NCBI GenBank assembly: GCA_039583875.1
Contig: CM077160.1
Coordinates: 116,795,895 to 116,859,894 of the forward strand
DNA: 64,000 nt
Reading direction: 5' to 3'
Origin: Platanthera guangdongensis
Taxonomy: Eukaryota > Streptophyta > Magnoliopsida > Asparagales > Orchidaceae
Shown here: piece by piece, positions 1,617 to 44,525 of the stretch
Position numbering within the stretch: position 1 is the stretch's first letter
How the letters are laid out: each line of letters opens with the position of its first letter
Position numbers and translations under genes: made by a program
Notes under the pieces: model-generated
What the model was told of the DNA's origin: nothing
Seen by the model: only the letters and a program-made list of their open reading frames with translations
The model's database searches: none

Positions 1617-1900
1617 ACTGCGCTCGACGATTTGCCCCAAGATCGTCGAACGGAGATCGACGATTTCCAAAAATCGTCGAACTGAGTTCAGCGCCTCTCA
1701 GATAGTATGAACTATCTCTTCCGGTCAACGATCGTCGAACGGCGCTCGACGATTTTGTTCTCTGAACGATCGTCGAACGGAGCTCGACGCTCTCCAATAT
1801 CGTCGAACGGAGATCGACGATGTTGAAAACTCTTCAGATTCCTTTAGAAGCCTCGATCGTCGAACTGAGTTCAACGATCTTTCCAATTCTGCGTCGAACC
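1617..1900 (+). repeat. Palindromic repeat array between pol and ORF3 (Sire-A)
   Basis: The spacer holds repeated dyads of the form ATCGTCGAAC-NGAG-NTCGACGAT, spaced by short unrelated words. The same dyad type fills 5473-5760 in this element's own LTR. It lies directly upstream of a TATA-like box and the ORF3 start, which suggests regulatory use. Confidence 0.8.
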
Positions 1901-1904: not shown

Positions 1905-1911
1905 TATAAAA
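1905..1911 (+). promoter_or_regulatory. Candidate internal TATA box for ORF3 (Sire-A)
   Basis: TATAAAA follows the last palindrome half-site and lies 121 nt upstream of the ORF3 ATG at 2026. The leader between is pyrimidine-rich and also holds a TTTTTGCAG acceptor-like site at 2011-2019. ORF3 could therefore be expressed from an internal promoter or from a spliced RNA. Confidence 0.45.
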
Positions 1912-2025
1912 CTCTTTTTTCGCCGTCGTTCTCTTTTGCGCTTTCGATTTCTCTGCAAGAATTTTCTTTCCCTCCAAACAGTTCTACACTTGGTCGTTTT
2001 GTTTGTTGAGTTTTTGCAGGTACCA

Positions 2026-5000
2026 ATGGCTGTGTCAGTTGCTGTTCTTGCTGCAATGAAGTTTGATGCCGGTTTTGACATTGATATAGAATCCTTCAAC
2101 ACGACTGATCAGATTTTTCAAGATATACTGGGTTTGTTCAAGGATCAGAATCTGACTGCTATAATGACCACCAGGATCAAGCTGGCTTCTGATGAGATCA
2201 AGGAGTGGGTTTATACTGCCCATAATCAAGATAACAGCACCATAGTTGGGTCAATAGCTGGAACTCAGGTACCCTTGACCCCAACCATTCTCTCAGAAGT
2301 TTTTGAATTGAGAAATGGAGAAGATTCTGCTGAGCTATCTGGAGAGGAGTATTCTGAACTGCTTGCCAGAATGGGTCATCCAGAGGGAAACCCTAGCAAG
2401 CTCTTCAAAAGGAACCTGTCTGTTGAATACAGGTTCATGGCAGATGTGGTGGGGAAAGTGCTACTGGCAAAGCACTCAGCCCATGATACAATATCCAGAT
2501 ATCAGCTCTGTCTCATGGGAGCTCTTGTGTATAAGAAGAATCTGAACTGGGGAGAGGTTTTCTTTGACCTCATCAAAAAGAAAATAAACAAAAGTTTTGT
2601 TAATTTTGGGAGAATTATTGGAGTATTTCTGCAGCACAGGTGTCCTGCCTTGATGGTCTCCTCTGGAGTTCATATCAATGCCTCCAAGAGATTGTCCTGT
2701 GCCCTCTTTGGAAAGTGGGACAGGCAAATCAACAAGCCTAGCAGGCCCTCCTCCAGTGCTCCTTCAGGAACAAGGACTTAAAGAGTCACTCCTCCATAGG
2801 TCTCTGCCCCTGCAGATGACCTGGCTGCTGCTGTTGCTTCTCCTCCTCCTCCTCCAATTCCATCCCTTCCCCTACCATCCACCATTCCAGCTCCATCCAC
2901 CATCATCATCTCCAGCCCATCTCCAACATCAACACCTTCTCCAGAACCTATTCTACCTCCACCAGTAGACCAATTCCACCCACTATTCTCCTATCCTCCA
3001 CCAGATGTCACCTCATCACCTTCTCATCCATCCTTCACCCTCCTTGATGATTCCTTTATGGATGATTCCCCATCATCTCCTCCTGAATTACCTTCCTCCT
3101 CCACTTCATTTCAAGACCTCCTACACCAGATCATTGATCAACTAACATTCACCCCATCCATATCCATTCCCCTGTCCTCCATACCCACCCTACCAACACC
3201 TCAGCCATCCATTCCACAATTCTCCAGCTCTCCACTTCCAGAACCTTCAGTTGCTTCCATGCCTTCTACCTCTGCTCCAGCTCTTGAGCAAGTAGACCTC
3301 TCAGCCCTTGCTGACAGGCTGTATGAGCTGCTTGCCCCCAGGCTCTCTCTATTGTTGGAGACCTCCTTGGCTCCTCTACACCTGTCAGTGGCAGCCCTTT
3401 CTGCCAGGCTCTCTTCCCTCTTCCCTCAGGCAGCACCTACAGCAGTGTGCCTTGATCCAGACATGTCTGCATCTAGGCAGGGGGAGATGTCATATGAAGT
3501 AATCCTTCATGTTGTTGTTGCTGCTACTTCTGTGACTGCTTCTGTAAGCTCTCTATCTGCTATTGCTGTTAGTTCTGCTTCTTCTGCTGCTCCTCCTGTT
3601 GTTGTTGCTGTGCCTCAAGCACAAAGTCAGAGTTCAACTGCAGTTCTTGCAATAGACCTCAGGTCTTTGCTATCAGCTTTTGATTCTGCCTTCTTCAGCT
3701 GTCTGCCAGAGGTCCATGCTGTCCAGCCTCCAGAAGATTTATCCAAGGCGCTTGTGCCTTTTTCTTGCTGTGACCCTAGCATGATCACTTCTTTTGTAAA
3801 TTCAGTAATTGCTGCTGCTGCTTCTTCTGAAGAAAGGACTGATTTTTCTTCTGTGAATGTTGATACTGCTGCTGCTGAAATTCTTACTGTTTCTGATGAA
3901 CCATCTTCCAAGGACATTCTGATGTCAGAGGCCACTGAATTTGAGCCTTCTGCAGTCCTTGATGGTTTTCCCTCAGTTTCTATTGATGATAGTAAATCTG
4001 CTGTTTCTGCTGTTGCTAGTGAAGTTGCTGCTGTTGTCACCTGTCCAGAGCCTACTGCTGCTGTTGCTGTTTCTGCTTCACCTTCTCCATCTACTGTTGT
4101 CCCTGCTGTTACCATCTCAACACCTGCTGCTGCTGCTGTTTCAACTTCTGCCTCATCTGCTTCTGCTCAGCTCAAAAAGGACTTGATGAAGAAAATAGAT
4201 GCTTTCTATGAGGACAAGAGTTCTGAATCTGATGAATTTAAAACAGACTCTGATGATTCTTCTGCTACCATTGCCAGGAAAAGGAAGGCAAGGAGCAAAG
4301 CAATGAAAAGGGTACCTCCTGCTAAAGTTAAAGATAACAATGATATCCCTTATTACATCTTACATGACTGCCCAATCACTGAACACTGGATGCAATACTC
4401 TAAAAATCAGCTGAAAGCAATGAAGAAAAAGAGAAAATATGAGAAGGGTTCATCCCAATTCCAGCACTCTCATCCTCCTCCACCACCTCCTCCTGATGCA
4501 GGTGCAGGTGGAAGCTCTGCTGCTCAACCCCCAGCCAGAAGTCAGGCTCCCTATCAACCTCATGCCAGATCTTACCATAGGGAAAGCCAATCCAGGGGTT
4601 CTCATTCTAGGAGAGGAGGCTATAGGGGTAATCAGAGAGATATTCAAGTCTATTCGAAAGGTTACTCCAGGCAGCACCCATATTCCAGGGAAAGACAAAC
4701 TTCAACTGATACAACATCTGGTTCTTTCCCTTACAAGCTGAAAGAGACTGTGTCTGCCAGGCCTCCTCAAGACAATCCCTCCAACAGGTTTGAGCCACCT
4801 GTACCTTTTGAGGACCCTGAAAATAATCCAGCTGCTTGGACTGCCAGATTAAAGGAATTAGCTGCACTGGATCAAATTAAAAAGGCCAGAGAACAAGGAT
4901 TAGATTCTTCCAACATTTCTACTATGTCTGAACAGAGACAGAAAGAACTAGAGAGATATGCTTCAAGTTAGTTCTTTGATGCTGACAGGTACATGGAATT

Positions 5001-5302: not shown

Positions 5303-6832
5303 TGTTGGAACACCCTATTACTAATTTGGGTCAGGATCACTATGTCTCTAGGAATCTTTGCTTGACCTCCTGTATAGCTTAATAGGTCAATTAGAATTGA
5401 GTCTAAGGGTTAGAAGTCTAGGTTTGGAAGCTGCCCTGAAGACCAAGATTTTGTGTTTGGAGACTAAGTCATATCGTCGAGCTCAGCACGACGATTCATC
5501 GAACTTCGATCGACGATCATCTAGCTCAACTTCGACAGATCGTCGAACTCCATTCGACGATCGCTGAGCTCAACTTCTTCACATCGTCGAACTCCATTCG
5601 ACGATCGGTGAGCTCAGGTCGACAATTTGGACTCTGCTTAGGATCTTTATCTCTGAGCTCAGTTCGATGATCTTTGAGCTCAGATCGACGATATTTTTGC
5701 TGCTATATATTTCCAGATCGCTGAGCTCAGCTCGACGATAGCAGAGCTCAGTTCGACGATTTCAGATAACTTCTAGAATGTTTCTAAATTCAAATTCAAA
5801 TCAGTTAGGAGTTATTCTGCAATTAATTCAGAGATTTGCTAGCCGTTTTCATTCAATTCTGGACCAAGTTTCAAGGGATTTTTCAAGGAATATATCTGTG
5901 GACTTTCCTCCAGAAGAGATTATGCAATTAAGGATGCAAATTAATGCAGGCCAACGGCTATACTTGACAGAGAATGTTATTCTATTCTATACCAGAGAAT
6001 AAAAGACAGGATATTTTGAATCTCTAAAAAAAAAAGAACACACACAATACAGAGAGAGGATACAGATTATAGAGACACATTCAAAAATCTTCTGTCACAA
6101 AAGAATTCTGAAGAACACACATCCAAGGAGATCAAGCCTTCTCAAATCTTTAGATCTCCGTAGTCTTCAAAGTGTTCAAGGCCAACATATTTCCAGACTC
6201 CAGACATTCAACATTTCAGCTATTGCTGAAATCATCTATTGCTGGAGTTCAATCTTTGAAGGCCTATCACCCTCAGCAAAGCTTTTTCTTCCTGAAGATC
6301 TCAAGGATTTAGGGGGAGCTTTGACATCAACAATCCACATAGTCTTCTCAGTTGTTTGAGAAAGAGAAGACTTCCATCATTCTCTCACCCCCACTCTGTA
6401 AAGGGTTTCTCAAACTCCCTTCAAAAGTTTGAGCTTGGTTTTTGAGCACCTTGTCAAAAGCTCATTGGTGGCAAGACACCTGATCAAAAAATCTGCTTTG
6501 GTTTTTGAGCACCTTATCAAAAGCTCATTGGTGACCAGGACACCTGATCAACTCATCCTGCAGTGGATTCCTACCTAGGGTGGTAGAAGAGTGGATGTAC
6601 CCAAGTTTAGGGGAACCACTATATTTCCTTGTGTCTTCTGGTTTTGCTTGTTTTCATTTTTGTTTCTGGCCCTGATTTTTCTGTGCTTAGTTCTTGTTTA
6701 ACTTAGTGTTGTAATTAGATTTATTATTGCTTCCCTGCTCACACTTATTACAACAATAGTTGTAAAAGTTTTTAAAGCACCATATACTCTATTCACCCCC
6801 TCTAGAGTATATTAGATCTAATTGCACTTTCA
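5303..6832 (+). repeat. Sire-A 3' LTR (1530 bp)
   Basis: It starts TGTTGGAACACC after the polypurine tract and ends with CTTTCA at 6832. Near the end it carries CTATTCACCCCC, also present just inside the ends of the Sire-B and Sire-C LTRs. The block GTGGATGTACCCAA followed by GGGGAACCACTATA near 6590-6625 is shared by all three. A tandem duplication of about 62 bp lies at 6430-6550. There is no target-site check because the 5' end is outside the window. Confidence 0.85.
5473..5760 (+). repeat. Palindromic repeat array in the Sire-A LTR
   Basis: Repeated ATCGTCGAAC, TTCGACGAT and GAGCTCAG words form dyads about 22 nt long. This is the same motif family as in the pol-ORF3 spacer (1617-1900). 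It sits in the 5' half of the LTR, where U3 enhancers are expected. Confidence 0.8.
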
Positions 6833-7105: not shown

Positions 7106-7131
7106 CTTCTTCTCTTCATCAACCTTGCTCT

Positions 7132-8607
7132 CTATAGATAAACCGACTTACCTCCATACGACGTCAGTTCATCAAAGATAATATCTCTTGATACAACAAA
7201 CTTTTTCATCGCAGGATCCATGCATTTCCATCCCTTCTTCCGCTCATCATAGCCAATAAAGACAAGCTTCCTTGCCTTTGCATCAAGCTTTGTCCTGGAA
7301 GCATCTGGTACATGCAGATAGCACGTTGATCCAAACACCTGAAGGTGTTCCACACTTGGCTTTTTCTTCAGCAACATCTCAAAGGGGGACTTCATGTTGA
7401 TCGGGCTGAGCAGCATCCGATTGATGACATTGGAAGCACAAGACATCACCTCTGCCCAGAAGGACCTAGTAGTGTCTTTTGCATGAAGCCAGCATTTGCA
7501 AGTCTCCGTCAAATGACGGATATTCCGCTCCGCTACTCTGTTTTGTTGTGGATTATCAGCACAAGTAAGCTCTCTTTGTATTACGCACTTCATGCAGAAG
7601 TTATAAAACTCTGAGGAGACAAACTCACCCCCGTTATCTGTTCTAAGCTTCTTGATCCGCAAGCCAAGCCGGCCCTCCACTAGCTCCTTGAACTTCACAA
7701 GCAAACGGAAGGCTTTAGAATTCTCCTTTAAGAAATATACCCAAGTGTATCTTGAGTAGTCATCAATCAATACAAGCATGTATCTGCTTCCACCAAGGCT
7801 GGCAGTGACAGTCGGTCCCATCAAGTCTCCATGGATACACTCCAATGGTCTCTTGCTCCTTATTTGTGATTTATCAAACAGAAGGCGATGAGCCTTGCCG
7901 TACTGATACCCCACGCAAACATGACCGTCACCAAAAGAATATAGCTTAGGCAAGCCTCTAACAAGGCTTCTGTTTGTCATAGCATTCAGCTTATCCATTC
8001 CTACATGCCCCAGCCTCTCATGCCAGATAGCAGTGCTATCATTTGCTCTCATCCGATCAACATAAGAGTTAGTTGCAAGAACAAACAAGTTCTTAACTCT
8101 CCTCCCAATATGAGCAATATCAGCCTTAACCGCTGATACGTTGCGAAGGAACTTCACTTCTATTGGCCCAAGCAGAATGTGATAACCAGCGTCTACCACA
8201 TTGGTCACAGAGAAGAGGTTCTTCTTCATGCCCGGTACATGATACATACTCCTTAACGTGAGTGGCCCCTTATCACTACCCAAAGACACAACTCTCTCCT
8301 TCTCTATTGAATAAACAGTATTATCACCAGTTATGATAGCTTTATTACTTGAGTAAGCTTGCAAGGAAGAGAACTTTGACTTGTCTCCGGTGAGGTGAGG
8401 ACCATACCTGGAGTCCACGATCCATTCGTCGTTGAAGTCGACAGTGGACAAGGTATGGACACAGGTTCCCGTCATGAAAGCTCCGCCCCATCCATCTTCC
8501 TTACTCTTAGAGCAAGCTTTCTCATTGCCAGCAGCATGCCCAGGCTGTAGTTTGATCTTGCAGTCATGCTTGAAGTGTCCCCGCTGATGACACCTGTAGC
8601 ACTTCAA
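7132..8607 (-). CDS. Cop-D1 Copia polyprotein segment: zinc knuckle, protease, integrase
   Basis: This 491-codon open frame starts at a CCHC zinc knuckle (CYRCHQRGHFKHDC, residues 3-16). A Copia aspartic protease region follows, but the catalytic D-S-G is D-S-R (VDSRYGPHLTGD, near residue 66), so protease activity is doubtful. The pre-integrase region IWHERLGH comes next. The integrase core retains its three acidic residues: HGDLMGP, RTDNGGEF and VAERN. The C-terminal part VFGSTCYLHV...FIGYDERKKGW is typical of Copia integrases. The ATG at the zinc knuckle is probably not the true start, since gag continues upstream out of frame. In a live element this would process Gag-Pol and insert the cDNA. 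Confidence 0.85.
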   Translation of the reverse strand: MKCYRCHQRGHFKHDCKIKLQPGHAAGNEKACSKSKEDGWGGAFMTGTCVHTLSTVDFNDEWIVDSRYGPHLTGDKSKFSSLQAYSSNKAIITGDNTVYSIEKERVVSLGSDKGPLTLRSMYHVPGMKKNLFSVTNVVDAGYHILLGPIEVKFLRNVSAVKADIAHIGRRVKNLFVLATNSYVDRMRANDSTAIWHERLGHVGMDKLNAMTNRSLVRGLPKLYSFGDGHVCVGYQYGKAHRLLFDKSQIRSKRPLECIHGDLMGPTVTASLGGSRYMLVLIDDYSRYTWVYFLKENSKAFRLLVKFKELVEGRLGLRIKKLRTDNGGEFVSSEFYNFCMKCVIQRELTCADNPQQNRVAERNIRHLTETCKCWLHAKDTTRSFWAEVMSCASNVINRMLLSPINMKSPFEMLLKKKPSVEHLQVFGSTCYLHVPDASRTKLDAKARKLVFIGYDERKKGWKCMDPAMKKFVVSRDIIFDELTSYGGKSVYL

Positions 8608-9164
8608 ATTCTTCTTCCAATCCTTCTTAGGAGCAGCGCTCCTCTCTGACTGACAAGAAGTTGAAGACTTATTTTCAGTAGCAGTCTTCTTATTCTTCCC
8701 TTCTCATCCCTTCTTCTTCTTGCCTGAGAAGAGAGCTTCACTGCCTTCCTCAGTGACAGTGACTTCAGCCATCTACCTTGCCAAACTTTCCTGCAAAGCA
8801 AGCAGGTTCTCCAGCTCCAGCAGAGATCGCCGAGTAGCCCAGCCTTGAACAGATGTCACAAAGGCAACATACTCCTTCCGTAAGCTGCGGATTATGTGCC
8901 TTTTCATCTTAGCCTCAAAGATAGGCTCATCAAGGTCAAGAGCTGAAAGCTCAGCTCACAAGCTCTTCATCTTCAGAAAGAATTTTGAGATGGCCAGATC
9001 TCCTTGAGTTGTCCTTGCCAACTCATTTTCCAGAAAATGAAGTCTGGCCACATTCTTCCTATTGAACAACTCATCAATAGTTGCCCAAATATCAGCAGCA
9101 GACTCACATCCAATGATGAGATCAAACAATTCTAGTGAAATAGCTCTCTTGAGAACAAACTCCA
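8608..9164 (-). pseudogene. Cop-D1 gag (UBN2-type), 5'-truncated
   Basis: Reverse-strand translation gives the Copia gag core seen in Cop-D2: CESAADIWATIDELFNR, FLENELARTTQGDLAIS and FVTSVQGW. Stops occur in the middle (near 8957) and near 8773, and the Lys-rich spacer before the zinc knuckle is frameshifted. The first part of gag is missing because the sequence switches near 9165 to an LTR in the other orientation. Confidence 0.75.
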
Positions 9165-10275
9165 GGGAAGTGGGGCAGGCCGGGCGGTCTGAGCGGCCTG
9201 AGCGGTCTGAGTCCGCGGTATGGGCGCACTGTTGGTTGCGGCCTGGGTAGTTTGGCTTGCTTGGTCTTGGTGGCTTGACTGTTCTTGAGGAGAGGCTTGT
9301 GCGGCCTATTGTGCGGCCTGTTGTGCGTCCTGCTTGCGGCCTGTTGTGCGGCCAGTATATTGTATGGCCGAAGGAGTCCTGTAACTTGGGCTTCTTGTGG
9401 AGTGGCCTGAGCGGACTGTGGATTGTGGTCTGTTGGCAGTGCCCAACTTGATCTGCGGCTTTGCTGCTGGTAAGCTCTTGTGGATCCAGGCGAACTGGAA
9501 GTTGTATCCGCGGTGTGTTGACGGACTTGTCTTCTGTGTCCGCGGAGTCCGCATATATGGATGGTGTGCTTTGGTTCTTGCCGAACTATCCTTGTTGCGG
9601 TGGATGTTGCTCGTCCTATGGCGGACTGTCCTATTGATTGGTGGTTTGATTCTTCTATGTCCATCGTGCTCGCGCTTGTTGCTTGGTGGGCTGCTGGACT
9701 TGATCATTTTCTGTGACAAGTTCACGGTGTCCGCAGAGTCCGTAGAGTTCGCTGTTGACCGGGGCCTGCCTGTGGTCATGTACTCAGTGGCAGGTGGTGG
9801 CGTTGTTGTTGTGCTCTGCGGACTACCTCCTGTGTCCGCTTGATGTGTTGAGTGGCGGTGGTGGTCTGGCGCTGGGCTTGCGTTGGGCGGGCTGGCGTTG
9901 TACCTATGTTGTACAAGTCTGCAGTGTGTGCTCATATTGGCGGATTGCCTTTGGTCTGGCTCCTTAAGGGTTGAAGTCTGGCCAAGTCCATGTGGACTTG
10001 GAGGACTGGTTGTGTTAGTGCACGGTCTGGAGAGGTGTCTCTATTCACTAGGGTAGTGACCACACTCCTCACCTCGTCTATAAATAATAGAGATCTTCTT
10101 TTATCTTATGTACTGGCAAAATCATGTCTCTCCATGTATACCTCGCCATGTAAAGAAGTGTTAATAAAAATAAGATCTGCTTGTTCTTCCATTTGCTTTG
10201 GGTGTTATGCTTGCTCCTTGGGTTTCCGCATGATCAAAGTGTGAACTGGTTAGTTCTGAGAATATTAATTTGGCT
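9165..10275 (+). repeat. LTR remnant of the Cop-D family, inverted relative to Cop-D1
   Basis: The start GGGAAGTGGGGC lines up with the Cop-D2 LTR shortly after its TGTTGAAAATTG start. GGGCGGTCTGAG repeats follow, then a TATAAATA box at 10079-10086 preceded by a block matching the Cop-D2 LTR (CTATTCACTAGGG, CACACTCCTC). A CATGTCTC...CGCCATGTA block and a CCGCATGATCAAAGTG end also match. The middle is shorter than in Cop-D2. Bases 10276-10330 resemble the start of the Cop-D2 internal region. Long open frames here are repeat artefacts. Confidence 0.7.
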
Positions 10276-18738: not shown

Positions 18739-18884
18739 TGTTGGGTACATTGGCTCAAATGTACCTGATTTGAAGAAGCCTCACCTAACTCAATGATATA
18801 CATCAAAAATGTATTTGATGTGTTTTGAGTTTACTTGTGCAGGCTAAGTATTTACAGGAAAGAAGAAAAAGTTTCTAAGTCCAT

Positions 18885-19783
18885 GTGTCGACACCCAGAG
18901 GGAAAGTGTCGACACTTAAGAAGACTTGTGTCGACACCCAGGCAAGCAGTGTCGACACTTGGAGTGATTGTGTCGACACCAGGGATGCTGAGTCGACACC
19001 AGACAGAAAGTGTCGACACAAGGAGCTGTGTCGACACTCAGTGAAGAAAAGTGCAGTAAAGCTGTGTCGACACTCAGTGAAGAAAAGTGCAGTAAAGCTG
19101 TGTCGACACTTAATAGTTGTGTCGACACCCAGAGAAACTGTGTCTACATCAGAAAGTGTCGACACTTGGAGGCTGTGTCGACACTCAGCAAAAGTCAGCT
19201 GAGACTAAGTATAAGTGTCGACACCCAGAGCAATGTGTCGACACACAACAAAAGAGTCAACACTTGAAGAAAGTGTCGACACAAGAAAGAATGTGTCGAC
19301 ACTCAGCTGAAGATTCAACATTTGAAGAAAGTGTCGACACAAGGAGCTGTGTCGACACTTAGCAAAGAACAGCAAAGTTCAACAAAACTATTCTAAGTAC
19401 AAGTGTCGACACTAAGGGGATGTGTCGACACTCAGCCAGAGTCTCGACAGAAGAAGAATGTGTCGACACAAGGAGCTGTGTCGACACTTAACAAGTATCA
19501 ACACTGAAGACATGTGTCGACACCAAGAAGCAGTGTCGACACTTAACAGATTCAACACATGAAGATGTGTCGACACAAAGGAGATGTGTCGACACTTAGA
19601 AGAATTCAGCAAAATACTGAAGTACAAGGACTTGTGTCGACACACATTATCAGTGTCGACACATGAAGAAGAAGCAGTGTTGAGATATTAAATCTACAAC
19701 ACAAGGAGTTGTGTCGACACCTTGTAGGCTAGTGTCGACACTTAGTCAACTTGTGTCGACACTTGGTCTATAAGTGTCGACAC
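18885..19783 (+). repeat. GTGTCGACAC palindrome array in the Sire-B LTR
   Basis: I count 32 exact copies of the perfect 10-bp palindrome, plus degenerate ones (GAGTCGACACC, GTGTCTACATC, GTCTCGACAG), in about 900 bp. Spacers are about 15-30 bp and mostly unrelated. A duplicated spacer occurs at about 19028-19110. The same palindrome recurs ten times at 26218-26560 before ORF3. Confidence 0.95.
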
Positions 19784-19940
19784 TTAAAGACAGACAGTCT
19801 CGACACTTACAGTCAGTTACAGAATTTTCAAGAACTAACTGGATGACTTGACAGCTGCCATTCCAGCCGTTCTACAGCACCTGTCAGAGTTGTCAGAAAT
19901 CAGTTATGAACCGGACCAGCCGGTTACCATGAAGAAGGCC

Positions 19941-19949
19941 TATAAATAG
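19941..19949 (+). promoter_or_regulatory. TATA box of the Sire-B LTR
   Basis: TATAAATAG lies in GGCCTATAAATAGGCTTAG, downstream of the palindrome array. Transcription would start about 30 nt further on. The same core recurs at 26489. Confidence 0.75.
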
Positions 19950-20454
19950 GCTTAGACTGTCTACAGAAACAGTGGTTCAAAGTTGTTGAAGTTGTTGATT
20001 GAACACAAGTACAAGTGATCAATATACAAAGAAGATCTAGCTATTCCTTGAAGAATCAAGTGTAGATCTAAGAAGTTGGAGAGAGAGAGCTCCATCCAAG
20101 AAATCAGTTGTTGGAACCAGACTGAGAAGAAGGGTTCAGATTTATTCTGAATCTTAAGTAGCAGAGATCAAGGATCAACTGCAGAAGAAGTCAATCTTAT
20201 TGTGTTCTACATTCAAGAAGCTTTGAAGAAAGCCAAGTCAGATTGATTTCAGCTGAGTTCTTCCAAGAACTCATCAAGAAACTCACAACTTTTCTCTCTT
20301 ATCTCTGAGTTGTTGAGTGATAATATTTGTATTCATTTTATCTTGTAGGATCCTTAGGGATCTGAGTCTTGTAAGCCTGTAATTATAAAGGCTGAGTGTA
20401 GGGCTTGAGTGCCTGAGTGTAGGAGATAGAAATCTCTGAGTGTAGGCCTATTGT

Positions 20455-20575
20455 GGCTGAGTGTAGGCCTTGGTGGCTGAGTGTAGGCCTTGGTGGCTGA
20501 GTGTAGGCCTTGGTGGCTGAGTGTAGGCCTTGGTGGCTGAGTGTAGGCCTTGGTGGCTGAGTGTAAGCTTTGTGG
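20455..20575 (+). repeat. 20-bp tandem repeat in the Sire-B LTR
   Basis: The unit GGCTGAGTGTAGGCCTTGGT repeats about six times nearly perfectly. Related CTGAG-TGTAGG words continue on both sides, and diverged ones fill 43750-44260 of Sire-C. Confidence 0.9.
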
Positions 20576-20880
20576 ATAAGCTGAGTTGTAGGGCCTTGAG
20601 CCTGAGGTGTAGGAACCTGTTTTGGGTTCTGAGATAGTGGAGAAGTTAGGTCGAATCTAGTACACTGCTAGATAGGCGAAGGGGGAAAGTGGATGTACCC
20701 AAACCTTGGGGAACCACTATAAAACTGTGTGTCTGTGTGCTATTATTGCTGTGTGATTGCTGTGATAAAGTAGCTAGAATTCTATGTTAGATTCTGTATT
20801 CTGCCATAAAATTTAAAAAGATTCAAGTCACCTATTCACCTCCCCCCCCCTATAGGTGTTTAGGTACTATATCTTTCAAG

Positions 20881-20982: not shown

Positions 20983-23019
20983 ATGGGTTCCACTGAGAAT
21001 CACAAGGAATTGGGATCCATGAAGTTACCCATATGTAGAAAAGAGATATTTGGGATATGGAAGGAAAGGGTGAGACTTTTTATGGAAGCCTCAGACCCTA
21101 GGATTTATATCACAGTAAAGGAGGGGCCTTATGTGCCCATGAAGGTATCAGTCTTAGATGCAAATCAGAGAACACCAAAGGATTTCTCTAAAATGACAAA
21201 GGATGAGACAGTACTAGCCACTATGGATAAAAGGGCTCAAAACATCATAGTGAGTTCCATAGATGATGCAACTTTTCAGAATCTGATACACTGTAAGACA
21301 GCTAAAAAGATGTGGGATACTCTTATTGTGTACATGGAGGGTTCTGAAGAAGTTAGGCAAGACAGAAAATCCTTGCTAAACCAAGAATATGAAAATTTTA
21401 GACAAGGAAAAGCTGATAGCATAACTGAATGCTATAAGAAGTTCTACAAGATTGTGAATGAACTCATGTCCTATGGCAGAGAGTTCAGTAATTATGAACT
21501 CAATGATAAGTTTCTAAGGTCCCTAACAAAAGATTGGGACACCAAGATCTGTGCCATTAGGGAAATGGCAAAGTTGGCTGAAATTCCTCCACCAACACTG
21601 TTTGGCAAACTGCTGTCCTATGAAATGCAGTTAATGGTGAGGAAATAAGAGGAGAAATCAACAAGAAGTGAACACAAAGAAAGAACAGTTGCCTTCAAAT
21701 CAGAAGCCTCCAGAAAGTATAGGAGTAAGTCACCAACTCCACCTCCTAAAGTTGCTGAAATAGAATCAGATGATTCAGAAAGTAGAAAATCTGAAAGCAG
21801 TGAAAGTGATGCGGACTTTGCTGCCTTCACAAGACATTTTCAGAAATTCTTGAAGAAGAAACAGTAGAGGACAAGGCCTTCAACTTCACAGGGAAAAGAA
21901 GACTATTATCAGAACAAAAAGTCTTCAAAGAAGGACAGGAAAAAGACTAAGTCTAGCAAGGCAACTCTTTCAAAAATAGTATGTTATTGTTGTAATAGAC
22001 AAGGTCATGTTGTTGCTGATTGTCCTGAGAAAAGGAAGGAGTCTAATGACAAGAAGAGGACTCAATACAAGGGCAAGAAGGAAAAGTCACTTGTTGCCAA
22101 GAAGGACAAGAGCTTGTCAGATATTTCTTCATCAGAAACTGAGTCAGATGCTGAGGCATATATAGGACTGTTTGCTGAGGAAGAAGAAGAAGAGTTCATG
22201 CAGATTATGAACTCTATATATGAACAAGAAGACAGTCAGTGCCAAGGACTAATGGCATTGACAGCAGGTGACAAATTCCTGGAGCAGCCAGGACCTAGTA
22301 AGGTACAAAGTTCAACTTTCAGTTCAATTTCTTGTGCCAGTACAGAATCAGATTCATCATCATCAAATGATGAGAGTGCATCTGAGTCTGAAGAAGACAT
22401 TCATCAGTTGATAGATGAATATAAAGTTCTATTGCAAGCTTATAAGAAGAGCAAGTCCCTAGCCAAAAGTCAGGCAAAGGAAATTGCTAATCTCAAAGCT
22501 GCTGCAACTGATTTGGAGAAATTGTTTGATCAAAAGCTTAATGAGGTAGCCAGACTGAAGCACATAACAGTGATTCAGATGGGGACTATAACATATAAGA
22601 ATGATCAAATCAAGAGTCTGGAGATTAATCTTCAGAAGGAGAAAGACTTAGTTGCTAGGTTTTCTAAACCCAAGTCAGTTCTACCCCTAATTGATGAATT
22701 TGTTCATCACAAAGGTAAAGCTGGACTGGGATTTACTAGACCTGCAAGGACTGTTCAGTCCAAGTCCAAAGTCAAAGCCTCAACTCTCAACAAGTCTGCT
22801 GTAGATAAAACAGCAAAGACAGTACCTAAGCAAAGGTACAATAAATTTGAGTGTTGGTGCTGTGGCAAGGTAGGCCACTTTGCAATGGACTGTTGGCACA
22901 ATGCTAGTGCCAAAGTGAGTAGCAAACTGCCTGTAGGAAAGCCTGCAGGTAGCTTTGTCAGGATGCAAACTAACAAGTATCAAGGACCCAAGAATTCTTG
23001 GGGTTCTAAGGTTCACTAA
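20983..23019 (+). pseudogene. Sire-B gag
   Basis: One frame from ATG 20983 to TAA 23017, with in-frame stops at 21646 and 21866. It starts 90 bp after the primer-binding site. Residues 1-220 are the Copia gag core (KKMWDTLIVYMEGSEEVR, LLNQEYENFRQGKADSITE). A Ser/Lys-rich part follows, then zinc knuckle 1 (CYCCNRQGHVVADC, near 21985), an acidic stretch, a coiled-coil-like region (22400-22660) and zinc knuckle 2 (CWCCGKVGHFAMDC, near 22855). Two knuckles and an extended gag fit a Sirevirus. Its role would be the virus-like particle shell and RNA binding. The final TAA lies in frame with protease and may be a CAA-to-TAA change. Confidence 0.88.
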
Positions 23020-23025: not shown

Positions 23026-24423
23026 TTGCAGGTAAATCCAAGTGGCCATGCCCCAATATGCTACTTGGACAGTGGATGTTCCAGACATATGACTGGGACT
23101 AGGGGATTACTAAGGGACTACACTCCAATCAAAGATGGTCCAAAAGTCACCTTTGGTGGTTCTGAAAAAGGAATCATCAAAGGGTTTGGTAACATTTCTA
23201 GTAACTTAGTTACCATTACTCAAGTGGCTTATGTTAAAGGTTTGAAACACAACCTAATTAGTATAAGTCAATTAAGTGATGTAGGATATGACATCTCATT
23301 TGTTAAAGATGGTTGTCATATCAAGAGGTCAAATGATCAAGAGATCATTTTGACAGGTTATAGAAAGAGGAATGTCTACTGCCTAGACATTAAGTGTGAG
23401 ACCAATGGTTCTCAAGTGTGTCTTGTAGCTGATGAGACAGTCTCTCATTGTGTCAAATGACACAAGAGGCTAGCCCATCTAAATTACAAGACTATTGGCA
23501 AACTCTTTAGCAAAGAGTTAGTGAGGAATGGTCCTCAAGTTAAGTGTATTAAAGATGGTATTTGCTCAGCTTGTCAAAAGGGCAAGCAGACTAGATCCAT
23601 CTTTAGAAGCATTGAAAACAAAGATGCTGTGAGGTGTTTATACCTTTTGCATATGGATCTCTTTGGTCCAATGCTAGTTCACAGCCTAGGTAGGAAGGTC
23701 TATACCTTTGTAGTTGTAGATGACTACTCAAGGTTTTCCTGGGTGTTCTTTCTTAGACAGAAATCTGAAATACCTAGTGTCTTCTATAGCTTTGTCAAAC
23801 AGATTCAGAATGAACTAGACAGTACGGTGGTCAAGATTAGAAGTGACCATGGTACTGAATTTCAGTCTGATAGCATGACAAAACTTTGTGAAGAATTTGG
23901 GACATTTCAAGAGTTTTCTTCACCAAGAACACCTCAGCAAAATGGCATTGCTGAGAGGAAGAATAGAACCTTGATTGAGGCTGGTAGGACCCTGTTAAGT
24001 GATACATCACTACTAGAAAATTTCTGGGCTGAAGCAGTTAATACTGCATGCCATGTTATTAATAGGGCTACCATTACTAAAAGCCTCAACAAGACCCCCT
24101 ATGAGGTTGTGAAAGGCAGGAAACCAAACCTGTCCTATTTCAGGATCTTTGGTTGTAAGTGCTTCATACTTAACAATGGAAAGTCTTACTTGACTAAGTT
24201 TGCTGCCAAGTCACAAGAGGGAATTTTTGTTGGGTACAGCAACAACAGTAAGGCTTATAGAGTCTACAACTTGTCTACTCAAGTTTTAGAGGAATCTGTA
24301 CATGTAGTATTTGATGAAACTAGACTTATTAATAATGAGTTGTCTAGTAGTGTATGCAGCCCCACAGGTATAACAAAGAAGATGGACAAGCTCACTATAG
24401 AAGAAGAACCTACTGCAAGATAG
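23026..24423 (+). pseudogene. Sire-B protease and integrase
   Basis: In the same frame as gag. The protease active site YLDSGCSRHMTG is intact at about 23062. Pre-integrase HKRLAHLN follows a stop at 23458 that replaces Trp (TGG to TGA). The integrase core has HMDLFGPM, KIRSDHGTEF and QQNGIAERKNR, so all three catalytic acids are present. The C-terminal VFDETRL region and tandem stops near 24421 end the open stretch. Confidence 0.9.
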
Positions 24424-25700: not shown

Positions 25701-26192
25701 TACCCTAGGAATGGGGATTTTGAACTAACAGGTTATTTAGATGCAGGCTTTGCAGGATGCAAAGAAGACAGAAAAAGCACAACTGGAACCTGTCAATTCC
25801 TAGGTGGAAGACTAATTTCATGGAGTAGTAAAAAGCAAACAAGTGTGGCTATCTCCACTGCAGAGTCAGAATATGTGGCTACAGGAAGTTGCTGTGCTCA
25901 ACTTCTGTGGATACAACATCAGCTTGAGGACTATGGAATTCAGGTAAGTAGAACTCCACTCTTTGTGATTCTACTAGTGCCATATCAATTGCACATAATC
26001 CTGTTTCCCATAGTATAACTAAACATATTGAAATAAAATATCATTTTCTTAGGGAGCATGTAGAAAGAGAAGATATTTTACTAGAATATGTTAAAACAGA
26101 TAATCAAATAGCTGATATGTATACTAAGCCCTTAGAATAAACTAAGTTCAATAGGTTTAAGATTGAACTAGGTATGATAAACTTAGAATAAG
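25701..26192 (+). pseudogene. Sire-B RNase H, end of pol
   Basis: RKSTTGTCQFLGGRLISW, STAESEYVATGSC and LLWIQHQL mark the Copia RNase H. The first acidic block reads YLDAGFAGC where SDADYAG is usual. A frameshift near 25950 precedes DSTSAISIAHNPV, TKHIEIKYHFLREH and IADMYTKPLE, the end of pol. The palindrome spacer begins 25 bp later. Confidence 0.85.
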
Positions 26193-26217: not shown

Positions 26218-26560
26218 GTGTCGACACACAGAGATATCTGTGTCGACACAGAAAAGTGGTGTCGACACTTCAGGGAAAAGGTGTCGACACATCTAGGAAG
26301 TTGGTGTCGACACTTCAGAAGATTTGTGTCGACACATAGTAAGTAGGTGTCGACACATCCAAGGTGGTGTCGACACTTAGGCTTTACTCAGAATTATTTA
26401 AGTAAAGTCTCGACTAAATGTCGAGTTATGTAGTGTCGACACAATTCAAGTTAGCTGACCCGCCTTTTCATCTTCAAACTTAGAAAGGTATAAATAGGAT
26501 TTTGCCTTAGTCTGTCGACACACTTTCAAAAGTTTCGAGACCAAACTTCTGTGTCGACAC
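26218..26560 (+). repeat. GTGTCGACAC palindrome array between pol and ORF3 (Sire-B)
   Basis: Ten exact copies of the LTR palindrome plus near-copies (CTGTCGACAC, GTCTCGACTA) lie between the end of RNase H and the ORF3 start. The last exact copy ends 35 bp before the ATG. Confidence 0.93.
26489..26497 (+). promoter_or_regulatory. Internal TATA box before Sire-B ORF3
   Basis: TATAAATAG lies in AGAAAGGTATAAATAGG and is followed by CTTAGTCTGTCGAC. The LTR promoter reads AGAAGGCCTATAAATAGG followed by CTTAGACTGTCTAC, so similarity runs past the TATA box. The ORF3 ATG (26596) is 107 nt downstream in a leader ending AAACCCTAATGGC, typical of plant mRNAs. Confidence 0.65.
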
Positions 26561-26595
26561 CTCTATTCTCTCAAGTTCAAATTCTTCAAACCCTA

Positions 26596-28856
26596 ATGGC
26601 GCCAAAGCTTGAGGAGAACGTCAACGAAGGGTATGAACTGGTGCGCGACGCGTTTGGTGAGGCTGATCAGGAAATAAAAAACGTGATAACCCTAGTTGCA
26701 GACTCAGGGTTGAAATTTCTTGTTTCAGAGCCTACAAAGATCTGGAAGAAAGAAGTGTTAGAATTTCTAAATGGAGCTAAGGTCGACGAATCTGGATTTA
26801 AGATCAAATCCAGGGTCCATGGTGAGAAGGTTAAGGTTTCACCAAAAGGTTTGAGGAAAATCCTTCAGTTACCAAGAACCAAGGAAGAAGAAGAGGTTAC
26901 AGCTTCCAGGACCAGAGATGTATTGGCATGGTGTGGTCTAGATTCTAAAATGAAGATTGGATCTGTTTTCAATAGAAAGGGCATGAACAGCCAAGGGAAA
27001 TTCATGTCTGAGATTGTAGGCAAAGTAATCTAAGCAAACCTGGAGGGCATGATAGAGTATCTGCCCATATGTTTCAGCATTATGACCAGGATAATCTTCA
27101 ATCTGAAAACTGACTGGTCTGTAGTAATCTTTGAGAAGATCAAGGAAAGCCTAAAGAAGCCCAACTTAGGCAGAATCTTAAGTCTATACCTTGCTGGAAG
27201 TATTCCAGAGGTAATGAATCATGCTGCTGGGACAAAATAAATCATATGAGGAAAATGGATATGAGGATATTCTCTAGATGGGATAGGGTGTTGTCTAAGG
27301 AGATGCCAACCCCTGAGAAGATAATTCCTGAGAAAGTATCACCACAAAAGAAGAAGAGGAAAACTGTTCCAGTGGCTCAGGTTTCTTCTAGCTCTGGTAG
27401 TGAAGAGCAAGTAGTCTTCACACCTGATGAAGAAGACACAGAAACTGCTGTGAAATCTCCAGTACAACAAGAAATTGCTGATAGGCAGGGGAGCTACCTC
27501 CAGCTAGCCCCATTCACCAGGATTCAGTTCAGGGGGAGTCACTAGTTGTGGAAGAGCCAAACTCCTCTGGAAAGTGAACAAGCTACAAACATCATCCAAG
27601 AGGTAATCACTGAGCTTAATGCTTTTGATTTTCCTATAGAGGATACTAATTTGTCTGATGTTTATCAGCAACCACATACTGATAGTCAAGTCCCAGATGT
27701 TGTAATGCAAGACACATCTGTTGTAGTTCAAGAAGTATCTGATCCAGTGGTTGAAGAGCCAAGAATTTCTCCAGCCCATTCACCACAAGAATATACCATG
27801 TAAGATCTATTCCTAAATCTGGATCTAACTGATTTTGACAAGGAATGTACTGCTACTGAGGGGGAGACTGCTCCAGTTGAGGGGGAGCAAGTTGTACTTG
27901 TTGAAGAGCCTATAAGGCAAGAACCTGAGAAGGCACCAGATGTGCAGAAGGAGTTACCCCCAAGCCCTAAGGAGAGGGTAGAAATTGCTAGCTCCTCAGC
28001 TTCAGAAGATGAGGAAGCTACAAGGGCCAAGAAAAAGAAAATTCATGTATTCAAGAGAAGGAGTCAGAGTTATAAGAAGGCCTTAAAATCTATTGCACAA
28101 CAGCCTATATCACTGCCAGCACCAACTGTTGATTATAGTGCTTTAATGGTTGCAATGCAAATCAAGCTGGATGAGCACAGAAAAGCCATAGAAACTTATG
28201 TGGATGAGGGGCACAAATCACTACAGTTTGATCTGGCACAGGACATTAAGTCCATAAGATTTGAGATGAATCTCAATAAGAAGGAGATGACAGACTGCTT
28301 TCACAAGGGAGGAAATGCAGTGGTGTACTTGGCTACACATCAGGAAAAGATTAAGGCTCAAGTAGATGACATAGCACTGAAGCAGGGGTATGTTCTAGAG
28401 AACCAAATCAGGATGAATGATAATTTAACTGCTTCCCATAATGCTATTGTCACAGAAATGAAAAACATAGCTGCTGGACATACATCTTCTACTTCTACTG
28501 CTATTGCTAAAGCAGAATTTGACAAAGTATTCCAAGAAGAAATAACTGCTGTTAAGACTGCCATTCAAGACTCTCAAAATATCATAACTGACAAACTCCA
28601 AAGGTTAAAACCTTTTTTTAAAGATGGAGTTAATTATTTGGATAATCAAGTCAGATTTCAAAAAGATGATGTGAGAGATCACATAGAAAGAGAAGTCATA
28701 AAGGGGGAGAGAGTTTTAGTCAAAGCCACCTCGGATCATGACAAGTGGATATCAAATTCTATCAGAGCAACTCTTGGATATCCTCCTTTTTGTGATGATG
28801 ATAATGTGGCAGAATCTGGAATTAATGTTGCATCAATATCTAGAGGGTATCACTGA
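26596..28856 (+). pseudogene. Sire-B ORF3, post-pol protein
   Basis: ATG 26596 to TGA 28854, with stops near 27031, 27238, 27541 and 27801 and one frameshift near 27240. The N-terminal 210 codons (VSPKGLRKILQLPR, GKFMSEIVGKVI, YLPICFSIMTRIIFNLKTDW) match the layout of Sire-A ORF3 and of plant transposon-protein domains. An acidic Ser/Glu-rich middle follows, then a basic KKKKIHVFKRRSQ segment and a long helical, probably coiled-coil C-terminus (28140-28750). No transmembrane segment is evident. Function is unknown. Confidence 0.75.
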
Positions 28857-28869: not shown

Positions 28870-29369
28870 NNNNNNNNNNNNNNNNNNNNNNNNNNNNNNN
28901 NNNNNNNNNNNNNNNNNNNNNNNNNNNNNNNNNNNNNNNNNNNNNNNNNNNNNNNNNNNNNNNNNNNNNNNNNNNNNNNNNNNNNNNNNNNNNNNNNNNN
29001 NNNNNNNNNNNNNNNNNNNNNNNNNNNNNNNNNNNNNNNNNNNNNNNNNNNNNNNNNNNNNNNNNNNNNNNNNNNNNNNNNNNNNNNNNNNNNNNNNNNN
29101 NNNNNNNNNNNNNNNNNNNNNNNNNNNNNNNNNNNNNNNNNNNNNNNNNNNNNNNNNNNNNNNNNNNNNNNNNNNNNNNNNNNNNNNNNNNNNNNNNNNN
29201 NNNNNNNNNNNNNNNNNNNNNNNNNNNNNNNNNNNNNNNNNNNNNNNNNNNNNNNNNNNNNNNNNNNNNNNNNNNNNNNNNNNNNNNNNNNNNNNNNNNN
29301 NNNNNNNNNNNNNNNNNNNNNNNNNNNNNNNNNNNNNNNNNNNNNNNNNNNNNNNNNNNNNNNNNNNNN
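28870..29369. other. Assembly gap, 500 N
   Basis: Exactly 500 undetermined bases. Left is the end of Sire-B ORF3; right is the middle of a different Copia element. A fixed-size gap suggests a scaffolding join, so true distance and adjacency are unknown. Confidence 0.98.
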
Positions 29370-31420: not shown

Positions 31421-32660
31421 GCGTGCTTTTTTCGCCCGAGCGCGATTTTTTCACCCGAACGCGATTTTTTTGCCCCGACTTGTTTTTTTTCGCTCGGGCG
31501 CAAATTTTTCCGACCGGACACGATTTTTTGGCCCATACGCGATTTTTTTGCCCCGACGCGTTTTTTCACCCGTGGCGTTTTCTTCGCACGGACGCGATTT
31601 CTTCGCCCGAGCGCGATTTTTTCACCCGGGCGCGATTTTTTGGGCCCGACGCGATTTTTTTGCCCCGACTCGTTTTTTTGCCCGACCGCAATTTTTTTCC
31701 ACCAGACACGATTTTTTCGCCCCGACGCGTTTTTTTCGCCCGTGGTCGTTTTCTTCGCCCGGACGCGATTTCCTCGGCAGAGCGCGATTTCATTGCCCGA
31801 GCGCGTTTTTTCCGCCCGGGCGTGTTTTTTTCGCAATTTTTGCGACCGGACGGGATTTGTTTCGCTCGGGTGCGCTTTTTTTGCCCGGACACAATTTTTT
31901 TGCTTCGATTCAATTTTTTCGCTGCCACCCGATTTTTTCGCCCGGACGCGATTTTTTTGTCTGCACATGACTTTTTCGCCCGGATGCGATTTTTTCGCCT
32001 GAACTCGATTTTTTTCGCCTGTACGCGATTTTTTCATGTCAGGGCGAAAAAATCGCGCCCGGGCGAAAATATCGCGCCCGGAAGAAAATATGGCGCCCTG
32101 ACGAAAATATCACGCCCGAGCGAAAATATCGAGCCCGAGCGAAAAACTCGCGACCGTGCAAAAAGTGACGTCCGGGCGAAAAAGTCACGTGCGGGCGAAA
32201 AAGTCGCGTCAGAAAGAAAAAGTCGCGCTCGGGCGAAAAAATCGCGTCCGGGAGAAAAAATCGCGCTCAGGTGAAAAAATCGTGCCCGGGCAAAGTGAAC
32301 GCCCACGGACGAAAAACGCGTCGGGACGAAAAAATCACGTCTGGGCGAAAACAATCGCGTCCGGACGAAAAAGTCGCGTTCGAGCAAAAAAATCGCGTCC
32401 AAGCGACAAAGTCGTGTCTGAGATTAAAAGTCCCGTCATGGCGAAAAAGTAGCGTCCGAGTGAAAAAATTGAGTCTGGGTTGAAAAATCGCGTCCATGCG
32501 AAAAAATTGCATCGCGGCGAAAAAATTGCATCTCGGCGAAAAAATTCCATTGGGACGAAATATTTCGCTTTCGGGCCGAAAAATTTTAGTCCAGACAAAA
32601 ATATCGCGTCATGACGAAAAAAACGAGTCCGGACGATAAAATTGATGCCGAGCGAAAAAT
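31421..32660. repeat. Large inverted array of about 20-bp repeats (foldback-like)
   Basis: From 31421 to about 32035 the unit reads GCGATTTTTTCGCCCGGAC in diverged tandem copies. From about 32041 to 32660 the same unit runs in the reverse orientation (GGGCGAAAAAATCGCG). The axis lies near 32030-32045. Arms of about 610 bp form an imperfect palindrome. In the left arm a higher-order repeat of about 190 bp is visible, starting TGCCCCGACT at 31471 and 31661. Stop codons are rare in the unit, giving long frames of FFARTRFF type on both strands; these are artefacts. Confidence 0.85.
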
Positions 32661-42264: not shown

Positions 42265-44525
42265 TGGTGGGTCTATTGATCCCAATGTCCTAGATTTGTA
42301 AGAAGTCAAACTGGTCAATGACATACACACATAATGTATTTGATATGTGCTTAAGTTCATGCATGCAAATAGTCCATGATTGGACAGGTGAAGAAAATGA
42401 GTATGTTGTGATTCCGAATTTGTCGAGCTCAGCTTGCAATTTGTCGAGCTCAGCTTGCAATTCATCGAGATCAGCTCATCATTCGTCGAGCGAAACTCAG
42501 AAGTGTGGAACTCAAAATTCGTCGAGCTCAGCTCACCATTCGTCGAGCTGAGCTCACCATTCGCTGAGCTAAAGTCAGAAGCTTGGGATTCAGAATTCGT
42601 CAAGCTCAGCCCACCGATCGTCAAACGCAGTTCAACATTCGTCGAATTAAGGCCAGAAGAATTGACCCAGGCAAAAACGCCAAGACAGTTGAGACAGCTG
42701 AGAAGTATGTCTCAGCATAACCGATGAGACAAAGCAGCAGAAATTTCTTTAAGTCCAGAAGCATTGAGAGAAGCAGGTTCACTCAACACTTCTAATGAAG
42801 AAGGAAATGCTGAGACAGTTGAGAGGAAAACCGTGGAGATAGAAGACAGTCTCAACTGAGAAGAAGAAAGCGTTGAGACCGCTGAGACAGAAGATAGTCT
42901 CAGCTGTTAAATAGAAACCGCTGAGACAGTTGAGAAAGAACCGTTGAGACAATGCCAGTGAAAATTCACTAAGTCCAGAAGCGTTGAGAGCCAAGACAGA
43001 TGGCGTTGAGTGACTTAACATTACTCAACGCTTATTGAAGATCTGAAATTTTGTCTAAGTCCAGAAGGTGATGACCACTGCTGACGTCATCAAAAGTCAA
43101 CGTGTCAAAGAACTTCATGCCGTTGCAGGAAGATACAACAGCACAAGATGACCACTGCTGACGTCACCAAAAAGTCAACAAAGTCAAAATACATGAAGTC
43201 GTTGCGGAAAAGCTGCAGTAGCGCCAAAAGCTTATTTGTCCTTTTATGAGGGAGGTGGCGCTCACCATCCTTGGTTGGGCCCACACTCAATTGTGTCGTT
43301 GATTTAAACCAACATATATAAAAAGAATAAAGAAAAGGGGATTAGGGTTACAGAGAACAAACGCAGAATACAGGAAGAATATACAGAAAATAGAGGCAGC
43401 TGGACTTCATATTCTCCGACAAACTTGAAAGCTAAAGTTCAGCAGAGTTATCCAGAAGGCAAAGAAAGAAAGTTGAAGCTCTTTCAAGTTCAGCAAGATT
43501 GTTCTCTCAAGAACAAGTCAGCTGATTCATCTATTTAGCAAGAAGTTAGCTGTGTGAAGGGTTGTTAGCCTTCAACAACAGATTGTTGTTCTCCAGTGCA
43601 ACAAAGAAGAAGTTGGCTGTAGAAGAAGACTTATTCCTTCTACAACAAGTGGGTTGGACTGATATCTGCTCAGTCCAGCAAGATAGACTCAGAGATTTAT
43701 CTCTGAGTCAGTTGTTTTAAATTTATTTCATCTTGTATAAACTCCTGTAGGATTCAGTTTATCTGAATCTGAGCTGTAGGGTCATTTGGACTGAGTTGTA
43801 GGTTACTAATTAGTCAGTGAAGTTGGTGCCCTGCTGGGGCACTGAGGTAGGATCCAAGTGTGGATCTGAGAGTAGGGCTGTCCTCCCAGCCTGAGTAGTA
43901 GGCCTTAGAAATAAGGCCGAGGTAGGTGATTGGTGAGTCACTGAGCTGTAGGTGACAAGTGTATCACTAAGTTGTAGGCCTTGGAGGAGGCTGAGGTGTA
44001 GGTGCCTGGAAGGGCACTGAGGTAGGTACCTGGATAGCTACTGAGTTGTAGAAGTGTTGCAGCACTCTGAGAGTAGGGCTTTGTGCCTGAAGTGGTAGGG
44101 TTGAAATGCCTGAGCTGCAGGCCTTAGAAATAAGGTTGAGGTAGGTGGTCAGTGGACCACTGAGCTGTAGGAGCACTATAGGGCTCTGAGGTAGGAACCT
44201 GTGTGGTTCTGAGGTAGGGTTCTGAAGAGAACCTGAGTGTAAGGCTGAGGGGCTGAGGTGTAAGTTCTGAGCAGCATATTGGTGGAGTTTGTGCCTAGTC
44301 CAACAAGATAATTAGATACGTGGGAGGGAAAGTGGATGTACCCAATTGAGGAACCACTATAAATAACTGTGTGCTTGTCTGTGTGATTTGTTTTCTTTTA
44401 TATTACATGATCTAAGGACAAGCTCTAGATCACATAAGAAGAAAATAGCATAAAGACTAATAAATTTTCAAAGACCTATTCACCCCCCTCTAGGTGATTA
44501 GCTAACCTAAGTTAAACAACTTTCA
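42265..44525 (+). repeat. Sire-C: solo Sirevirus LTR (2261 bp)
   Basis: It starts TGGTGGGTCTATTGATCCC, which aligns with the Sire-B LTR start, and ends CAACTTTCA. Inside are a CGTCGAGCTCAGC array (42418-42645), a GTTGAGAC/GCTGAGAC array (42675-42990) and a TATATAAAAA box at 43315. CTGAG-TGTAGG repeats (43750-44260), the GTGGATGTACCCAA block and CTATTCACCCCCC near the end follow. It interrupts the Cop-E coding frame exactly between two ACAGT copies, and no internal region is present. Confidence 0.93.

Follow-up and report, generated by a model that had tools for sequence, protein, structure and literature searches.

Palindrome arrays and TATA boxes of element B

The window, by which we mean the whole 64-kb stretch of DNA analysed, contains a retroelement designated element B ('Sire-B', Sirevirus-like) and, at its start, the end of a second one, element A, which extends from locus L017 into the window. 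Element B exhibits copia-type gag and pol domains in Pfam (PF14223, rve and PF25597), the domains recognised in element A being RVT_2 and, in gag, PF14223. A third ORF (ORF3) is present between pol and the 3' LTR in element A and in the copies of element B. The Sirevirus lineage name for element B comes from a first-pass annotation of this DNA together with this anatomy. The features of element B are the following:

18739..20878, + strand: 5' LTR (bounds of the first-pass annotation)
18885..19783, no strand: LTR array of 32 exact copies of GTGTCGACAC
19941..19949, + strand: LTR TATA box TATAAATAG, located 167 nt downstream of the last exact palindrome (counted from its first nucleotide)
20983..21648, + strand: gag ORF (PF14223)
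23653..24423, + strand: integrase part of pol (rve, SH3_retrovirus)
26189..26191, + strand: pol stop codon, placed by homology with L013 (ending in MINLE and the stop), 26 nt before the first palindrome
26218..26376, no strand: internal array, exact copies 1-8 of GTGTCGACAC
26433..26442, no strand: ninth exact palindrome of the internal array, 56 nt before the TATA box
26489..26496, + strand: internal TATA box TATAAATA, invariant in 24/24 aligned copies
26512..26521, no strand: one-mismatch palindrome CTGTCGACAC, downstream of the TATA box
26551..26560, no strand: tenth exact palindrome of the internal array, 62 nt after the TATA box, in the predicted 5' UTR
26596..28856, + strand: ORF3, disrupted in this copy (open for 145 codons, up to its first in-frame stop, and fragmented beyond)

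A polyC-rich stretch near the 3' end of the LTR (around 20846) and TGGTATCAGAGC directly 3' of the LTR were read from the sequence. The LTR also contains, downstream of its TATA box, a 20-bp tandem repeat of CTGAGTGTAGGCCTTGGTGG (20436-20565; 6.4 units, 98% matches). The last open piece of ORF3 extends from 28146 to 28856 and is followed right away by 500 N (28870-29369). No further GTGTCGACAC occurs past 26560, and therefore the 3' LTR of element B lies outside the window.

Exact copies of GTGTCGACAC number 42 in the 64-kb window, against 0.03 expected from shuffles, and ten of them are located between pol and ORF3 (26218-26560). The first-pass annotation had described these ten palindromes with a TATA box 107 nt before the ORF3 ATG, and an LTR carrying 32 copies of the same palindrome and the same TATA core; recounting in the window confirmed the former in all its parts and reproduced the latter exactly. 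The ATG is situated at 26596, the 107 nt being measured from the start of the internal TATA box. A TATAWAW between the end of the array and this ATG appeared in 29 of 2000 shuffles, and TATAAATAG in 0 of 2000; in the window itself, TATAAATAG occurs three times, at 19941 (LTR), 26489 (internal) and 39926. Measured start to start, 91 of 170 intervals between palindromes in the LTRs span 18-22 bp, and 24 of 40 in the internal arrays span 18-23 bp, which corresponds to about two helical turns.

Conservation of the arrays across the genome

A search for the paired arrays in other copies of the family, suggested by the first-pass annotation, found them. Three more elements on contig 1 match the window in LTR array, internal array, TATA box and ORF3 start; each consists of two loci (L009 and L011, L013 and L014, L015 and L016) that we infer to belong together from position, orientation and LTR identity. 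Twenty further copies, with 8-14 exact palindromes each, were taken from the 40 that had been scored among 4,988 candidates. As resemblance to the promoter stretch guided this choice, they are biased towards the window's own sublineage and the presence of the TATA box in them is partly pre-selected. In all 24 internal blocks (4 + 19 read by script, L029 by eye) the TATA box lies 106-107 nt from the ATG. The palindromes mostly occupy the same places relative to the TATA box, with partial shifts or shortening in the window, L048, L036 and L047; L048, situated 10.7 Mb away and 100% identical over 261 nt, shares the shortened array of the window. In six LTRs, exact GTGTCGACAC copies number 26-32 per LTR (the partial arrays of L013, with 5 copies, and L020, with 13, being excluded from this count), and the last one starts 166-188 nt before the TATA box. 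Moreover, an array precedes ORF3 at 6/6 loci with an N-terminal part of ORF3 detected by tblastn (window and L009-L028), of which L009, L013 and L016 had been fetched for their arrays and only L021 was a random draw.

The anchor ATCTTCAAA-N30-38-TGTCGACACNCTTTC, which spans the internal TATA box without specifying any of its letters, yielded 7,794 matches (3,905 + 3,889) in the 4.25 Gb of the species' own genome and 0 for the control. Among the 100 anchor matches listed, all on contig 1, inspection by eye identified TATAAATA in 96 and exact TATAAATAGG in 84. A search for palindrome pairs separated by 5-25 nt gave 1,097,064 matches per strand (control, 15), the counts being equal on both strands because the pattern reads alike on each. 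The GTGTCGACAC-type motif is extremely common in this genome.

With every column counted as palindromic in which any row had an exact copy, a definition that favours the palindromes somewhat, mismatches across four internal blocks amounted to 16/690 comparisons in palindrome columns versus 260/1812 in the remaining block columns, some of the spacer mismatch being misalignment. The same four copies showed 183/1791 mismatches at the end of pol and 516/2520 in the first 420 nt of ORF3. Among six LTRs (window, L009, L011, L014, L015 and the second one in L016; the partial L013 and L020 were left out), mismatches between elements were 87/4146 in the palindromes versus 1903/12418 in other columns. 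Two LTR pairs, taken as the two ends of one element, served as a post-insertion baseline and gave 11/649 in the palindromes and 77/1985 in other columns, so that nearly all change in the palindromes can be decay after insertion. As for the internal TATA box, only 3 of 254 spacer 8-mers were equally conserved in the 24 aligned copies.

CpG dinucleotides inside the palindromes were kept in 134/136 internal and 874/920 LTR cases, and those outside in 60/78 and 192/273, respectively, with 58/114 in ORF3. A role of the arrays in chromatin or RNA, and not in a promoter, could also be imagined, the CpG palindromes acting as nuclei for methylation or small RNAs, or as RNA folding signals. CpG is indeed present in every palindrome, clusters of the RM palindromes of published Sireviruses border CpG islands (PMC2829016), and in element A one array falls in the last part of the gag coding sequence (see below). 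Nevertheless, a methylation target should erode, and exact retention of the 10-mer and its registry with the TATA box suggest protein sites that the element preserves, which makes such a role very unlikely.

ORF3 of element B is under strong purifying selection (dN/dS 0.03-0.07), with the reservation that dS is near saturation. Between copies (window from 26596 onward, L009, L013, L015 and L016), dS amounts to 0.9-3.2 in ORF3 versus 0.08-0.51 in pol; the lineages of ORF3 seem considerably more ancient than pol, as would result from recombination or conversion of pol.

The internal block had been regarded in the first-pass annotation as a second copy of the LTR promoter module, with similarity extending past the TATA core. 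Architecture and motif agree with this description, and the letters quoted do occur in both places; the general sequence does not agree. With the palindromes masked, the LTR TATA stretch and the internal post-array stretch matched over 19 columns with a score of 22, which was equalled in 24 of 500 shuffles, and a palindrome-free window tile (57016) scored 27; tiles scoring up to 32 contain masked palindromes and reflect an artefact of N matching N. Since the match outside the palindromes and the TATA box is at about chance level, the two regions share a design and not a copied module, and sequence duplication of the LTR promoter was rejected. Local gene conversion, by which repeats of the LTR would have been transferred to the internal site in the window copy, could account for the identical 10-mer at both sites. 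Its probability is nonetheless negligible, as the LTR and internal flanks are unrelated and 24 copies on 19 contigs share the internal array, mostly in the same register, a family-wide presence that refutes a local event.

A second motif in element A and the expression of ORF3

Element A exhibits a comparable arrangement built on a different, interrupted palindrome, and comprises the following features in the window:

1643..1877, no strand: internal array of TCGTCGA-N7-TCGACGA, 5 copies (up to 2 mismatches), before ORF3
1905..1911, + strand: TATA-like TATAAAA, 121 nt upstream of the ATG of ORF3
2010..2020, + strand: GTTTTTGCAG/G resembling a 3' splice site, immediately upstream of the ATG (a rival reading)
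2026..2781, + strand: N-terminal part of ORF3, with a weak PF20167 match, homologous to ORF3 of element B
5474..5738, no strand: same interrupted palindrome in the 3' LTR, 6 copies (up to 2 mismatches)

In L017, the 5' LTR of element A also holds 6 copies of TCGTCGA-N7-TCGACGA (up to 2 mismatches). Within the 64 kb, the motif has 0 occurrences outside the arrays in front of ORF3 and in the 3' LTR. The ORF3 proteins of elements A and B are 24% identical (E 1.9e-21). Hence two motifs exist, each in the LTR and before ORF3, in elements with diverged ORF3s. A TATAWAW before the ATG of element A ORF3 was given by 10 of 2000 shuffles. In a random 80 kb, one ORF3 was found (L021), 49% identical to that of element A and directly preceded by 5 motifs of the TCGTCGA-N7-TCGACGA type; no strict TATAWAW lies between this array and the ATG. 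Element A carries seven additional motifs around the end of its gag ORF (L017:7926-8138; ORF 6267-8102), five of which lie entirely within the ORF and encode a repeat rich in arginine and serine; arrays are therefore not always promoters. The A-like element of L021 also has motifs at 1548-1748, at a distance before the ORF3 array like that of the gag-end array of element A. Arrays of TCGTCGA-like half-sites are also situated near other copia RT fragments (window 42417-42645; L018:7617-7878).

Paired arrays, conservation above background, the array-TATA-ATG geometry, thousands of copies and, for the single copy L013, the stops and altered frame after pol are direct observations. We propose that the region 26218-26595 of this Sirevirus-like Ty1/copia element probably constitutes an internal promoter from which RNA polymerase II would transcribe ORF3. 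According to this model, GTGTCGACAC would be the target of a nuclear factor with sequence specificity, most likely a host-derived dimer, and the palindromes, often about two helical turns apart, would act as enhancer arrays for the TATA promoters of both the LTR and the internal region. The LTR promoter would yield the genomic RNA, and the internal one a short ORF3 mRNA with a predicted start near 26520; through the shared arrays, both RNAs would presumably be switched on together. Expression of ORF3 from an internal promoter sharing sites with the LTR, as put forward in the first-pass annotation, is thus retained as the best reading, on the strength of the invariant TATA box, the fixed ATG distance (24/24) and the independent motif pair in element A, with the reservation that the promoter is not a duplicate of the LTR sequence. 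Among the mechanisms considered for ORF3 expression, an internal promoter has the best support. Several points weigh against it: apart from the motifs, the surroundings of the LTR and internal TATA boxes are not alike; the random A-like copy L021 lacks a strict TATAWAW between array and ATG; element A has its other array at the gag end; a splice-acceptor-like site precedes ORF3 in both A-type loci; and six published ENV-bearing Sireviruses have no RM boxes (PMC2829016).

The acceptor-like sites raise the alternative that ORF3 is expressed by splicing from an LTR-started RNA, an acceptor before the ATG being joined to a donor in the leader and the array being intronic, for instance as an extra enhancer. 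Such sites read GTTTTTGCAG/GTACCAATGG in element A and TTTCTCTCTTGCAG/GTGCACTATGACG in L021, and a CT-rich stretch ending in AG precedes the ATG in the 4/4 element B copies examined. In 3/4 of these copies, however, the AG is an AAG, which makes a poor splice acceptor. Acceptors predicted for the ENV genes of both Athila and BAGY2 are also mentioned in PMC2829016, but splicing leaves unexplained both the invariant TATA box at a fixed distance and the matched motif. We consider splicing unlikely overall, though a serious contender; it is strongest in the second family, that of element A, where the acceptor-like sites of element A and L021 and the missing strict TATA box of L021 make it a live rival. 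A further route is exemplified by SIRE1, which like element B has a third ORF after pol and expresses ENV through stop-codon suppression (PMC2829016). Unlike SIRE1, L013 separates pol from ORF3 by 10 stops, counting that of pol itself, as well as by a shift to another frame, so that SIRE1-like readthrough is unlikely.

An internal promoter for the third gene of Sireviruses was proposed by Peterson-Burch and Voytas in 2002, and the way in which this gene is expressed has been under debate ever since, as recounted in PMC2829016. In that study, Bousios et al. (2010) reported paired RM arrays and hypothesised an internal promoter for ENV, which they were unable to identify conclusively; here, the TATA box stands at a fixed distance in 24/24 blocks. 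As in element B, the Sirevirus RM is a high-copy palindrome located in the LTR before the TATA box and again before the third ORF, and in the nine elements that have both RMs and ENV, 77 of 79 linker copies lie upstream of ENV (PMC2829016). The same paper gives up to 32 units per element (linker and one LTR), versus 42 in element B, and a Vitis RM, CGGTCGACCG, whose GTCGAC core is common to GTGTCGACAC. Sirevirus RMs there have a CGG-CCG core (except Tnd-1), which is absent from the symmetric part of GTGTCGACAC and from TCGTCGA-N7-TCGACGA. A later database paper from the same group, citing earlier work, names stop codon suppression and an internal promoter as mechanisms of ENV expression and describes no promoter in its available text (PMC3414828). 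Among the matches listed in a literature search for the GTGTCGACAC 10-mer, none concerned plant retrotransposons by title. Similarly, none of the later papers among the matches listed mapped such an ORF3/ENV promoter by title or start of abstract, subscription papers being mostly outside the coverage. A 2016 study reportedly treats the LTR palindromes of maize Sireviruses. What is new here is the fixed, invariant TATA box and the lack of a CGG-CCG core in the motif; otherwise, the design is that of published Sireviruses. The fixed TATA module, present in thousands of copies, provides exact coordinates for testing ORF3 expression.

Candidate factors recognising the palindrome

The motif is common to Ty1/copia and Ty3/gypsy elements. 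Near-identical stretches with 7 (L012:6759-7108) and 6 (L011:9044-9393) exact copies of GTGTCGACAC flank one gypsy coding region, which on one strand contains RVT_1, RT_RNaseH and Integrase_H2C2 in L012 and a Tf2-1-like SH3 domain in L011; these stretches are most likely the two LTRs of that gypsy element. Another gypsy pol is surrounded by a repeat pair 94% identical (C5 60.039-60.046 Mb), one member of which carries TCGTCGAACGGAGATCGTCGA, one letter off the palindrome of element A, twice, with close variants in both. The stretches observed next to Ty3/gypsy coding sequence, with GTGTCGACAC or a one-letter variant of the element A motif, include L024:9206-9464 and L025:4652-4959 besides those of L011 and L012.

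The presence of identical or almost identical motifs in gypsy elements favours a host factor or parasitism. The GTCGAC core would fit the RYCGAC site of CBF/DREB factors. A host factor would explain most simply both the sharing with gypsy elements and the palindromes of ENV-less Sireviruses, although parasitism on ORF3 may also account for them. That both superfamilies carry the motif, and that it is much better preserved than the sequence around it, suggests that they have one recognition factor in common; this factor would act on a very abundant part of the 4.2 Gb genome.

ORF3 itself may be considered as that factor. It would enter the nucleus, bind the palindrome of its own family at the LTR and at the internal promoter, and activate or de-silence the element in a VANC-like manner, a role that we regard as doubtful. 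In its favour, the motif pair and ORF3 differ together between elements A and B, ORF3 is strongly constrained, and a basic, NLS-like cluster is found at residue 252 (KKKRK in L016, RKKRK in L009, KKKKK in L013). Linker copies are present in 9 RM-bearing elements with ENV and 0/4 without (Bousios Table 3, PMC2829016). However, four Sireviruses without ENV have LTR palindromes (same paper), the motifs recur, identical or almost so, in gypsy elements, Pfam recognises no DNA-binding domain in ORF3, and AlphaFold models, at pLDDT 33 and 38 from shallow alignments, were uninformative. PF20167 (Transposase_32) scored 26.3, 20.3 and 17.8 bits, below the gathering cut-off of 45. Protein relatives were two for the N-terminal part of element B ORF3, both from Platanthera zijinensis (57% and 53% identical), and one for element A ORF3; the single PDB match of P0001, to a ribosomal protein (E 0.28), was taken as chance.

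An envelope function has also to be weighed, given that PMC3414828 assigns common transmembrane and coiled-coil domains to Sirevirus ENV-like genes. Hydropathy maxima reach 0.87-1.58 in the element B pieces, and 1.84 in the C-terminal part of element A ORF3 and 1.88 in P0002, so that a membrane stretch is possible for some members. The hydropathy of element B ORF3, its NLS-like cluster and the strong purifying selection fit a nuclear protein better than an envelope, if not uniformly across members. ORF3 control of both promoters may thus be viewed as an interesting possibility. The fuller version, in which ORF3 would be a nuclear, family-specific palindrome binder at both promoters and not an envelope, would establish a positive loop or counter silencing, and would have its sites exploited by gypsy elements, seems to us slightly more doubtful still.

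In foamy viruses, which are vertebrate retroviruses, the LTR promoter and an internal promoter within env share sites for one activator. The parallel with element B is an analogy, with no homology expected, and the Sirevirus RMs (Bousios et al., 2010) are the nearer precedent. VANC proteins of VANDAL elements resemble the present case in being element-encoded and in having tandem noncoding target motifs that differ between families; unlike element B, VANDALs are DNA transposons and their binding has been shown, that of ORF3 being conjecture (PMC10398659, PMC12844716). Accessory genes with their own promoter are represented by gene23 of Grande, a Ty3/gypsy element. Gene23 lies between pol and the 3' LTR and encodes a nuclear protein from its own internal promoter but, unlike ORF3 of element B, is an antisense gene, and no shared palindrome array is described in the available text (PMC7264820).

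Finally, further arrays were observed. Another repeat mixes GTGTCGACAC and CTCGACGAAC units in a single array (L001:1501-1640) and perhaps links the two motif types. At 31427-32642 of the window, about 32 copies of a 19-mer are followed by about 32 oppositely oriented copies of a similar unit, forming a 1.2-kb inverted array, and dense arrays of GGACTCC-type palindromes are located in further repeats (L010:2181-3400 and 8833-9936).
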